The position numbers and the translations under genes were made by a program. A stretch of 22,145 nt of DNA from a virus, in IMG/VR virus record IMGVR_UViG_3300048554_000680, positions 1 to 22,145 of that record. One strand, given 5' to 3'. The notes under the pieces are model-generated. The model made no database searches. It saw only the letters and a program-made list of their open reading frames with translations, and was not told the origin of the DNA. Shown here one piece after another: positions 4,187 to 6,434 of this stretch (position 1 is the first letter of the stretch; every line of letters starts with the position of its first letter).

Positions 4187-4486
4187 ATGAATAAGAAGAA
4201 ACAGCATAGAGCATGGCTCTTGGCCGCTCGCATTGGTCCATTAGTAGCCATGATGGCAATGTTATTTTGCCTAATATTAGAATTAGACACTTTATTAGAA
4301 TATATACTATATGGTATTGCAATACTATTTGCTATAATTGCATTCAGTTGGTGGTTCTGGATTATGGATATTGCAAAAGGAATGATGCAATTACTAGAAT
4401 CAGCAGCAGCTAGGTTTGAAGAAATACGAGAACAAATACGACAAATTAAAAAAGATATAGATGATGGGAAAGATGACAGAAGATGA
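4187..4486 (+). CDS. Small membrane protein with C-terminal coiled coil
   Basis: A 99-aa protein. Two hydrophobic segments at about residues 11-30 and 35-58 (IGPLVAMMAMLFCLILEL and YGIAILFAIIAFSWWFWI) are followed by a highly charged helix (ARFEEIREQIRQIKKDI) likely to be a coiled coil. The layout resembles small phage spanin or holin-like and signalling proteins, but nothing assigns a role. It starts 6 bases after the structural gene and overlaps the next gene by ATGA (4483-4486), so it belongs to a coupled transcription unit. Confidence 0.7.
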   Translation: MNKKKQHRAWLLAARIGPLVAMMAMLFCLILELDTLLEYILYGIAILFAIIAFSWWFWIMDIAKGMMQLLESAAARFEEIREQIRQIKKDIDDGKDDRR

Positions 4487-5049
4487 TAGTCATAGGAAAT
4501 GGCGAAAGTCGTTTACCTATAGACCTTTCGCTACAAACAGGAATAAAGATTGGTTGCAATGCAATCATTAGGGATTTTTTTGTAGACCATTTAGTCTGTG
4601 TAGACAGACGTATGGTGCAGGAAGCTCTGTCTCTCAAAACAAAATCTGTTATATATACAAGACGTGAATGGATAAGTTCATTTGATTTTCCTGTAATGCC
4701 ATTACCTACAATACCTTACAAAGGCGACAAAAGACCAGACGAACCCATGCAATGGGGTAGTGGGCCGTATGCAGTTTTACTTGGAGCTCTTTTATCTAAG
4801 CAAGTAAAAATGCTAGGATTTGATTTATACAGCGAAACAAAAGCAGTTAATAACATTTATAAAGATTCAGATAATTATGATGCTGGAACTAAACGTCCTG
4901 TAGACCCTAGATATTGGATTTACCAAATAGGGAAAGTTTTTGAAATTTTCCCACAAACCCAGTTTAAAGTGTACAATAAATTAGGCTGGATTTTGCCAAA
5001 AGAATGGCAACTACCTAATGTTTCACTTGACAATGTCAATGCTTTCTAG
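4483..5049 (+). CDS. Rossmann-like protein, possibly DUF115/MptE-like or glycosyltransferase-related
   Basis: A 188-aa protein. Its N-terminus IVIGNGESR, then GCNAIIRDF and DHLVCVDRRM, is the pattern of a nucleotide-binding Rossmann fold as seen in DUF115-type proteins (6-hydroxymethylpterin pyrophosphokinase MptE or sialyltransferase-like). A later MQWGSGPYAVLLGALL / VKMLGFDLY pattern fits the second half of such a fold. It sits two genes before a GT8-like glycosyltransferase and directly before a pterin enzyme, so both a glycan and a pterin role are conceivable. The fold is a moderate-confidence inference; the substrate is unknown. Its 3' end contains the -35 and spacer of the queD promoter. 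Confidence 0.65.
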   Translation: MIVIGNGESRLPIDLSLQTGIKIGCNAIIRDFFVDHLVCVDRRMVQEALSLKTKSVIYTRREWISSFDFPVMPLPTIPYKGDKRPDEPMQWGSGPYAVLLGALLSKQVKMLGFDLYSETKAVNNIYKDSDNYDAGTKRPVDPRYWIYQIGKVFEIFPQTQFKVYNKLGWILPKEWQLPNVSLDNVNAF

Positions 5050-5055
5050 TATAAT
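5027..5055 (+). promoter_or_regulatory. Perfect consensus sigma70 promoter TTGACA-N17-TATAAT
   Basis: TTGACA is at 5027-5032 and TATAAT at 5050-5055, with exactly 17 bases between them. This is full consensus. The -35 and spacer lie inside the end of the upstream gene. The predicted start is at about 5062, which is the A of an ATG and 9 bases before the leader hairpin. Confidence 0.9.
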
Positions 5056-5061
5056 AAGTAC

Positions 5062-5131
5062 ATGACACACAGAGGACTTTTATACGTCGACCCTCTTAAA
5101 ATACTCCGCCGTTCATATAGAGGAGAATATA
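5062..5131 (+). promoter_or_regulatory. Structured 5' leader of the queD-like gene (possible riboswitch-like switch)
   Basis: The ~70-nt leader starts 9 bases before AGAGG (5071-5075), which can pair with CCTCT (5092-5096) across a 16-nt loop. After this comes an A/T-rich tail (TTAAAATACTCC). The same AGAGG recurs at 5119-5123 within the Shine-Dalgarno AGAGGAG (5119-5125), so CCTCT could alternatively cover the SD. CTCC (5104-5107) could also pair with GGAG (5122-5125). The string ACCCTCTTAAAATACT resembles the 3' half of preQ1-I aptamers, which fits a queuosine-type gene. However, I cannot place the required pseudoknot pairing, so this is a structured leader with an unproven ligand. Confidence 0.45.
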
Positions 5132-5145
5132 ATGGCTTATTATAG
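5062..5145 (+). CDS. Possible 27-aa leaderless leader peptide upstream of queD
   Basis: An ATG at 5062 lies exactly 6 nt after the TATAAT, where transcription should start, and opens a 27-codon frame that ends at TAG 5143-5145, 14 bases inside the queD-like gene. If it is translated as a leaderless message, ribosomes would cross the hairpin and the queD Shine-Dalgarno. They would then terminate next to the queD start, giving coupling or attenuation. No family match is recognisable. It could be chance. Confidence 0.3.
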   Translation: MTHRGLLYVDPLKILRRSYRGEYNGLL

Positions 5146-5608
5146 CACAAAAACATACGGACACAACATCGGACTTTCAGCGGTGTTCCGTCAACCAAAT
5201 GCAGATCACTCACATTGTCATCTGCTACATGGATACAGTTTGCAATTTAAATTTACATTTGGATGTGCAAAACTAGATAACAAAAATTGGGCTGTCGACT
5301 TTGGTGGCTTGAAACAAGTTAAAGCATGGCTTGAAGATTCCTTTGATCATAAACTTTGTATAGACAAAGATGACCCAATGAAAGATGATTTGTTATTACT
5401 AGAATCAAAAGGACTTGCAGAGATTAGACAGTTTGATGGTGTTGGTGCAGAGAAGTTTGCAGAACACGCATTTAACTTTGCAGACGAATTAATTAGAAAA
5501 GCAACTGACGATCGTTGTTGGGTTGAATCTGTCGAGTGTGCTGAGCATGGAGCAAATAGTGCAATCTATACTCCATTCGAATCACAGAAGATTAGATTTG
5601 ATGGCTAA
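5132..5608 (+). CDS. queD: QueD/PTPS-like 6-carboxy-tetrahydropterin synthase homologue
   Basis: Enzymes of this family turn dihydroneopterin triphosphate into 6-carboxy-tetrahydropterin (7-deazaguanine/queuosine route) or 6-pyruvoyl-tetrahydropterin. The 158-aa protein keeps Cys29 in HCHLLHGY, DFGGLK (56-61), the Asp72-His73 pair (FDHK), VGAEKFAEHAFN with Glu107, and VECAEHG near 134-140. The usual zinc His in the FSAAH motif appears as Phe19, and the HGH motif is HGY (His33, Tyr35). Two of three classical zinc ligands therefore seem replaced. His26, His28 and His30 lie nearby. Marine phage homologues, as I recall them, share this variant. Regulation is by a consensus sigma70 promoter and a structured leader; SD AGAGGAG is 6 nt upstream. 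The end overlaps the next gene by 8 nt. Confidence 0.85.
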   Translation: MAYYSTKTYGHNIGLSAVFRQPNADHSHCHLLHGYSLQFKFTFGCAKLDNKNWAVDFGGLKQVKAWLEDSFDHKLCIDKDDPMKDDLLLLESKGLAEIRQFDGVGAEKFAEHAFNFADELIRKATDDRCWVESVECAEHGANSAIYTPFESQKIRFDG

Positions 5609-6422
5609 GATTGATAAAAGCCAGTATACAAAAGAACAATGGCAAGTTATAAAAGCACAACGCAAGGCGGACAAAGAACTTAACCGCCTTCGAAAAAATC
5701 ATAACATTGACGACAGCAATACAGATCAAAAATATATACTTTGTTTAAAACATGGACAAAAATATTCTAGCGATTATGTAAACAAATTGTACAACATGTG
5801 CAAACGCAACTGTACAAATTTTAAGTTTGCATGTTTAACAGATGATCCAACAGGTATTGATCCTGATGTAATAATTTTAGACTTGCCAAAAAATCTTGCA
5901 GGATGGTGGTGCAAACCTTACATCTATTCGCGAGACCTACCTATTAAAGGTGTAATATTATATATGGACTTAGATGTTGTTATTGCATCTAACATAGATC
6001 ATTTGTTCGAATACTTTCCAGATGACTGGTGTGTTATAAGAGATTTTACAAGAGTTATGCGTCCTAAGTGGGAAAAGTATAATTCAAGTGTAGTAAGATT
6101 TAAAACAGGCCAATTACATTTTGTTTGGGAAAGATTTGCTAGACAACAGCAAGTAATTCAAAAAAGACATTTTGGAGATCAAGACTGGCTGTGGGAAGCC
6201 GCTAGAGGAACTGCTAAACTATTTCCAGACAATTGGATTAAGAGTTGGAAATGGGAAATAAGAAGAAGTAAAGAGTGGGCACCTGGTGGAACTAAAGGTA
6301 CTCGTAAATTTAAATATGTTGAAAACATTACACCCCCAGATCAATGCTGTATTGCAGTATTTCATGGAGATCCTAATCCGCACAGATGTGAAGATCCATG
6401 GGTGGTTGACAACTGGAAATAA
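5601..6422 (+). CDS. GT8-like glycosyltransferase
   Basis: This is probably a nucleotide-sugar-dependent glycosyltransferase that modifies virion, DNA or host surface glycans. The 273-aa protein begins with a charged helix (residues 1-40). A GT-A-like domain follows, with strand YILCLKHG (45-52) and the metal-binding DxD at Asp123/Asp125 (YMDLDVVI). A C-terminal VFHGDPNPH resembles the conserved HxGxxKPW region of GT8. ATG 5601 is chosen over an earlier TTG because MAKIDKSQYTKEQ reads as a proper N-terminus and gives the usual 8-nt overlap with queD. Acceptor and sugar are unknown. Its last codons contain the -35 of the uvsE promoter. Confidence 0.78.
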   Translation: MAKIDKSQYTKEQWQVIKAQRKADKELNRLRKNHNIDDSNTDQKYILCLKHGQKYSSDYVNKLYNMCKRNCTNFKFACLTDDPTGIDPDVIILDLPKNLAGWWCKPYIYSRDLPIKGVILYMDLDVVIASNIDHLFEYFPDDWCVIRDFTRVMRPKWEKYNSSVVRFKTGQLHFVWERFARQQQVIQKRHFGDQDWLWEAARGTAKLFPDNWIKSWKWEIRRSKEWAPGGTKGTRKFKYVENITPPDQCCIAVFHGDPNPHRCEDPWVVDNWK

Positions 6423-6434
6423 AGATTGTATAAT
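6406..6434 (+). promoter_or_regulatory. Perfect consensus sigma70 promoter TTGACA-N17-TATAAT upstream of uvsE
   Basis: TTGACA is at 6406-6411 and TATAAT at 6429-6434, with a 17-base spacer. Six bases (AAAACT) then lead to ATG 6441, so the predicted +1 is the A of the start codon. No SD precedes this ATG, consistent with a leaderless message. Confidence 0.9.

Follow-up and report, generated by a model that had tools for sequence, protein, structure and literature searches.

The window analysed here is the 22,145-nt virus record IMGVR_UViG_3300048554_000680. It carries a queD-like gene behind a promoter and a leader with complementary segments, which raises the question whether this leader controls the gene and to what effector it would respond. 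The coordinates of the features are given in Table 1. The elements described in the original prediction were all found again: AGAGG (5071-5075), CCTCT (5092-5096), the second AGAGG (5119-5123) and CTCC (5104-5107) lie where it had placed them, the promoter it called perfect reached the full consensus score in our scan, and the gene it called queD-like is assigned to PTPS/QueD by both profile searches. The promoter is not unique within the window, with a second 12/12 match at 6406-6434 and an 11/12 match at 1727-1755, and its -35 box and spacer overlap the 3′ end of an upstream ORF (4483-5049). The second perfect TTGACA-N17-TATAAT ends 6 nt 5′ of ATG 6441 of a UvdE-like gene, so the mRNA of that gene would be leaderless or nearly so. 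As for QueD itself, the motif that presumably reads HGH in the E. coli protein is HGY in the phage family, which also lacks what we take to be the first zinc histidine of E. coli QueD, so the metal site may differ. A leader peptide starting from ATG 5062, in a frame running through the leader, was considered and rejected, as this ATG is missing from many relatives and the loops vary in length without keeping the frame.

Table 1. Promoter, RNA elements and gene around the queD leader (positions in the window)
Feature	Position	Strand	Sequence or pairing	Basis
queD promoter, sigma-70-type	5027-5055	+	TTGACA (-35, 5027-5032)-N17-TATAAT (5050-5055)	12/12 consensus match; similar promoter at the same place in many relatives
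P1 5′ strand	5071-5075	+	AGAGG	covaries with 5092-5096
Loop L1	5076-5083	+	ACUUUUAU	length varies; second position C in 35/38 aligned leaders
P2 5′ strand	5084-5089	+	ACG (5084-5086), unpaired U (5087), CG (5088-5089)	P2 variants and inner-pair counts
Loop L2	5090-5091	+	AC	C 5091 directly 5′ of the P1 3′ strand
P1 3′ strand	5092-5096	+	CCUCU	covaries with 5071-5075
Loop L3	5097-5106	+	UAAAAUACUC	A-rich; invariant A, U and C, the invariance of UC being partly built into the search pattern
P2 3′ strand	5107-5112	+	CG (5107-5108), C 5109 facing U 5087, CGU (5110-5112)	
Alternative hairpin P3	5108-5136	+	GCCGUU (5108-5113) and AUAU (5115-5118) with AUAUAAUGGC (5127-5136)	predicted minimum free energy fold (MFE) of the leader
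Shine-Dalgarno (SD)	5121-5125	+	AGGAG	kept in relatives
queD-like gene, 6-carboxytetrahydropterin / 6-pyruvoyltetrahydropterin synthase	5132-5608	+		PF01242 (4e-14); phrog_2389, QueD-like (2.8e-39)

Folded on its own, the leader of the window was unremarkable in comparison with shuffled sequences (z -0.59), so the question became a comparative one. A QueD protein search of IMG/VR gave 80 close relatives, whose leaders were compared side by side, and a conserved block was seen between the promoter and the SD. Three classes of leader are exemplified by AGAGGACTTTATGCGTCGACCCTCTTTAAATACTCCGCCGT (class A, the kind found in the window), AAGGACTTGGCGTCAACCCTTCTAATTCTGCCGCC (class B) and AGTGGACTAGGTGTTCGACCCACTATAAATATTCCGCACAC (class C), and pattern scans enlarged the family to at least 134 distinct relatives, mostly from IMG/VR. 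The block is an H-type pseudoknot of about 35-45 nt, and both of its helices covary strongly among the relatives. In permutation tests, all of which treat related phages as independent, partners were exchanged among distinct variants; the pairing score was 279 for P1 against 206.6 ± 10.1 (p 0.0002) and 364 for P2 against 260.5 ± 11.8 (p 0.0002). An alignment of 38 diverse leaders gave the same picture for P1 and P2 together, with 87.4 % of cells paired (63.5 ± 1.7 % after shuffling), a covariation score of 0.565 (0.153 ± 0.023) and 74 cells changed on both sides (23.6 ± 4.6), and the signal was lost when the partner was slid by 1-3 columns. The variants of P1 include AGAGG/CCUCU, AGUGG/CCACU, AGACG/CGUCU, AGCGG/CCGCU and UAGG/CCUA, those of P2 GGCG/CGCC, GUGU/ACAC, AGGA/UCCU, AACAG/CUGUU and GACAU/GUGUC, and one P2 pair (alignment columns 21-50) takes five standard pair types. 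The absence of covariation among homologous leaders had been named beforehand as grounds for giving up the original prediction; the AGAGG/CCTCT pairing proposed there is P1, which is conserved and covaries, so this half of the case against it falls away. The pseudoknot strand that it considered impossible to place can now be placed as P2, in which ACG (5084-5086) pairs with CGU (5110-5112) and CG (5088-5089) with CG (5107-5108).

P2 consists of three to four outer pairs, a U.N mismatch (a bulged U in the GGA-type subgroup) and two inner pairs. One inner pair (columns 25-46, window 5088-5108) is always C-G in the 38 aligned leaders, and the other (columns 26-45, window 5089-5107) is G-C or A-U in 38/38. 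In the 134 distinct sequences listed, this R-Y pair is concordant throughout (75 G-C, 59 A-U). The search patterns let R and Y each change on its own, but they did specify UC, C and UCYG, so the invariance of these positions is partly built in. Both states of the R-Y pair occur inside several P1/P2 groups. L2 has two bases (A, U or C, followed by C), and the A-rich L3 contains one invariant A and three As in 31/38 leaders, being shortened in class B, about half of which also have a P1 of just 3 bp. The conserved bases cluster at the helix junction. Comparison among the relatives thus establishes P1, P2, the inner R-Y pair and the linkage to queD described below. A P2 register shifted by one column was tried and fails overall, though it seems to be the one used in a small subgroup of GGA type. 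Five relatives (L282, L313, L344, L377 and L393) form a further subgroup in which L1 starts with AUGG, an extra GGCA or GCG precedes UCG, P2 is longer (e.g. UACAAG/CUUGUA) and GGCC follows downstream. We also noticed that the first base after the P1 5′ strand tends to equal the base before the invariant C (columns 7 and 28; A/A in 97 and U/U in 15 of 134), which may point to a contact between them in the putative pocket.

The P2 3′ strand, together with the nucleotides that follow it, can instead form a second hairpin, P3, by pairing to the SD or start codon. In the predicted MFE structure of the window, where 5108-5112 belong to both the P2 3′ strand and the P3 5′ strand, the SD lies in an 8-nt loop and the start codon inside the stem. 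Because P2 and P3 have bases in common in most leaders they are mutually exclusive, and P1 is compatible with both. Over 126 leaders the P3 duplex energy was -6.72 kcal/mol in comparison with -5.28 ± 0.13 kcal/mol after permutation, and P2b was paired with the SD or AUG occluded in 107 of 126 fragments (82.6 ± 4.4 permuted). Permutation within groups was significant for GGCG (0/400), AGCG (5/400) and GGGA (2/400), and not significant for class A, the window's own subgroup (63/400). The GGA group gave no P3 signal (202/400), and the test was likewise not significant in the GUGU group, where P3 is invariant (ACUCC/GGAGU). In class B, the tail CAU accompanies 12/19 genes starting with AUGGG vs 2/30 starting with AUGGC (Fisher p 3e-5). 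The predicted P3 pairing therefore tracks the SD or start sequence across and within several subgroups. The leader had been expected to hold two competing pairings, and exclusive pairings do exist in the form of P2 and P3, but not the ones drawn: for CCTCT with the SD the mean longest helix was 3.52 (3.46 permuted) and 5 bp were reached in just 1.7 % of leaders, and for CTCC with GGAG it was 4.21 (4.14 permuted). The leader thus has two hallmarks of a riboswitch, a conserved aptamer-like fold that always precedes queD and a platform, P3, that excludes P2 and whose pairing beats permuted partners in all leaders taken together and within three subgroups, class A not being one of them.

To describe the distribution of the RNA we used a covariance model (R1) containing the P1 pairs alone. 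The model recognised the RNA in 59 of the 80 close queD relatives; the remaining 21 (including L010, L014, L018, L019, L023, L047, L056 and L057) lack it, many of them having short plain leaders. One strong copy each is present in 20 of 21 phage records, the largest of which measures 316 kb; the weakest true match has 29.8 bits, and none of the others exceeds 16.6 bits. Wherever an intact gene follows a match it is a PTPS gene, the very divergent ones included. R1 matches none of the eight cultured phages whose queD is about 50 % identical, and in several of these queD lies directly behind another gene. In bacterial genomes, the pattern scan returned, among the matches listed, chance matches and two MAG contigs carrying phage genes. 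These two (L427 and L470), labelled Bacteroidetes and Rickettsiales, have the RNA, queD and phage-type genes, and are probably phage contigs binned with bacteria. A model search across one bacterial class recovered one of 289 genomes, the one holding a MAG contig with phage genes, and a further match of 23.6 bits lies in one of the two genomes that hold these contigs. Judging from the sequences, the RNA is common before queD in many aquatic phages, and in the present search it was confined to phage or phage-like contigs.

We favour, with a probability of roughly 60 %, the reading that the leader belongs to an undescribed family of phage cis-regulatory RNAs, an H-type pseudoknot of about 45 nt with an expression platform, resembling a translational riboswitch, that would control QueD by sensing a pterin or a 7-deazaguanine, with the pseudoknot as the ON state. 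P1 would be present whether the switch is ON or OFF. When it is ON, the P2 3′ strand would pair with the P1 loop and so be kept off the ribosome-binding region; when it is OFF, this strand and the nucleotides following it would form P3 with the SD or start codon instead. This assignment is the simplest, since the strand able to mask the ribosome site is tied up in the pseudoknot. The effector would stabilise the pseudoknot and move the balance to ON. It would most likely be a small molecule of the FolE-QueD-QueE pathway, bound where P1 and P2 meet and close to the invariant C; candidates are pterins (dihydroneopterin triphosphate, carboxytetrahydropterin) and 7-deazaguanines (CDG, preQ0). We infer that the effector is a metabolite, which metabolite it may be, and that it turns translation on.

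Control by a protein could yield similar conservation. The pseudoknot would then bind QueD or a phage translational regulator, and the choice between P2 and P3 would follow binding. The linkage of a single copy to queD fits autogenous control, and H-type pseudoknots are used in phage autoregulation: the leader of T4 gene 32 is such a pseudoknot, bound by gp32, and controls translation. The T4 leader resembles ours in being an H-type pseudoknot in a phage mRNA leader; it differs in being bound by a protein and is unrelated in sequence, and we know of no P3-type competitor in it. Two observations make protein control unlikely. The conserved bases sit at the helix junction, as in pseudoknots that sense small molecules, and the loops vary little while the QueD proteins encoded behind them diverge widely.

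Another possibility is a diverged true preQ1-I riboswitch with canonical binding of preQ1 or preQ0. Several features are shared with preQ1-I (RF00522, types I-III): both have an H-type pseudoknot of about 35-45 nt, a P1 with at most 5 bp and an invariant closing G-C, an A or U and then C directly before the P1 3′ strand, an A-rich L3 and a queuosine-pathway gene downstream. The one invariant A of the phage L3 may or may not be the counterpart of the L3 adenine by which preQ1-I touches its ligand. AC or UC at this position, with C as the specificity base, is a criterion for preQ1-I (PMC11625349). The two nucleotides are AC in 104, UC in 18 and CC in 12 of 134 phage sequences (thus A or U before C in 122/134), the C itself being part of the search pattern. 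Since the invariant C occupies the place of the preQ1-I specificity base, directly before the P1 3′ strand (PMC11625349, PMC10622847), the ligand may well present a face resembling that of guanine or of a pterin. There are also differences. The conserved U after the P1 5′ strand, a contact to preQ1 in preQ1-I (UU in types I and III), is mostly missing (AC 104, UC 23, AU 5 and CC 2 of 134), and P2 is longer, with the U.N mismatch and the R-Y pair. Unlike in the translational types of preQ1-I, the P2 3′ strand does not overlap the SD, which lies about 6-19 nt downstream of it (median 11 nt), and the SD or AUG is handled by a separate hairpin, P3, that shares the P2 3′ strand. The phage RNA also stays below the RF00522 cut-off wherever it was scored (0/21 records above it; the best score at a queD leader was 14.6 bits vs 39, a weak match in one relative), and differs from preQ1-I in being found, in the present search, just in phage or phage-like contigs. 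The enzymes that make preQ0 and preQ1, QueC and QueF, were mostly not detected, although both compounds could come from the host. Canonical preQ1-I is thus quite improbable.

The leader had been suspected to be a preQ1-type or other switch, perhaps of a new class, and a search with the Rfam preQ1 models had been suggested as a check. None of these models matches: those of preQ1-I (RF00522), preQ1-II and preQ1-III all had no match in the window and 15 relatives. What holds is that the leader is conserved, preQ1-I-like, equipped with exclusive pairings and uncatalogued. In the same set of sequences Rfam as a whole, at the gathering cut-off and at E up to 10, returned chance matches alone (Mu-gpT-DE with 12.4 bits in the leader). 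The riboswitches preQ1-II and preQ1-III are likewise pseudoknots before queuosine-precursor genes, but they are larger and of the HLout type (PMC11625349). The manA and wcaG leader RNAs from marine metagenomes and cyanophages are similar in that they are structured and precede metabolic genes of aquatic phages (PMC2864571), but belong to other genes, and Rfam gives no match for the queD leaders. No report of a queD-leader RNA was found in the part of the literature searched, which was open access. Overall, it looks like a new RNA that is preQ1-I-like in design and is not classed as preQ1-I. A constitutive 5′ structure without switching, either an mRNA stabiliser or a ribosome standby element, would fit the leaders in which the predicted transcription start lies at or near P1, so that the pseudoknot caps the mRNA, but it is very improbable because it predicts neither conserved loop bases, nor an alternative helix that changes along with the start codon region, nor restriction to queD.

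Returning to the metabolite-sensing pseudoknot, we can extend it tentatively to a new phage-confined riboswitch class that would sense an early metabolite (pterin or CDG), switch QueD ON and thereby time the synthesis of 7-deazaguanine for DNA modification in aquatic phages. To our knowledge, virus-only RNAs of riboswitch type have rarely been described, and we know of none for phage 7-deazaguanine genes. With the queD-leader RNA, the small sensors built as H-type pseudoknots would gain a further design. As it is a common phage leader with a structure backed by covariation and a named gene behind it, the pathway ligand, the direction of control and its timing are directly testable. The products of phage 7-deazaguanine genes protect phage DNA from restriction (PMC6884629).

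The genes around queD bear on the choice of ligand. The window is too short to show pathway genes; the gene content given here is that of 20 large records, which may be incomplete. FolE (GTP cyclohydrolase I) is encoded in 15/20, and in several records queD or folE is adjoined by QueE-like matches that do not reach the cut-off set for the B. subtilis QueE model. QueC was above cut-off in 1/20, QueF in 0/20 and TGT in 0/20, although DpdA-type enzymes may escape the TGT model. One contig (L066, 1-6428) contains folE, queD, a phosphoribosyltransferase and a QueE-like ORF within 6.5 kb; the last has no Pfam match and its assignment rests on the match to the QueE model. FolE, QueD and QueE together would give CDG (PMC6884629). 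Because folE is common, QueE-like genes are near and QueC, QueF and TGT are mostly undetected, the pattern suggests that the product of the pathway is a compound such as CDG rather than preQ0, and for the same reason a pterin or deazaguanine ligand is favoured. Two of the records, both single phage records (G013 with L272, 205 kb, and G020 with L069, 110 kb), have 18 radical SAM matches each.
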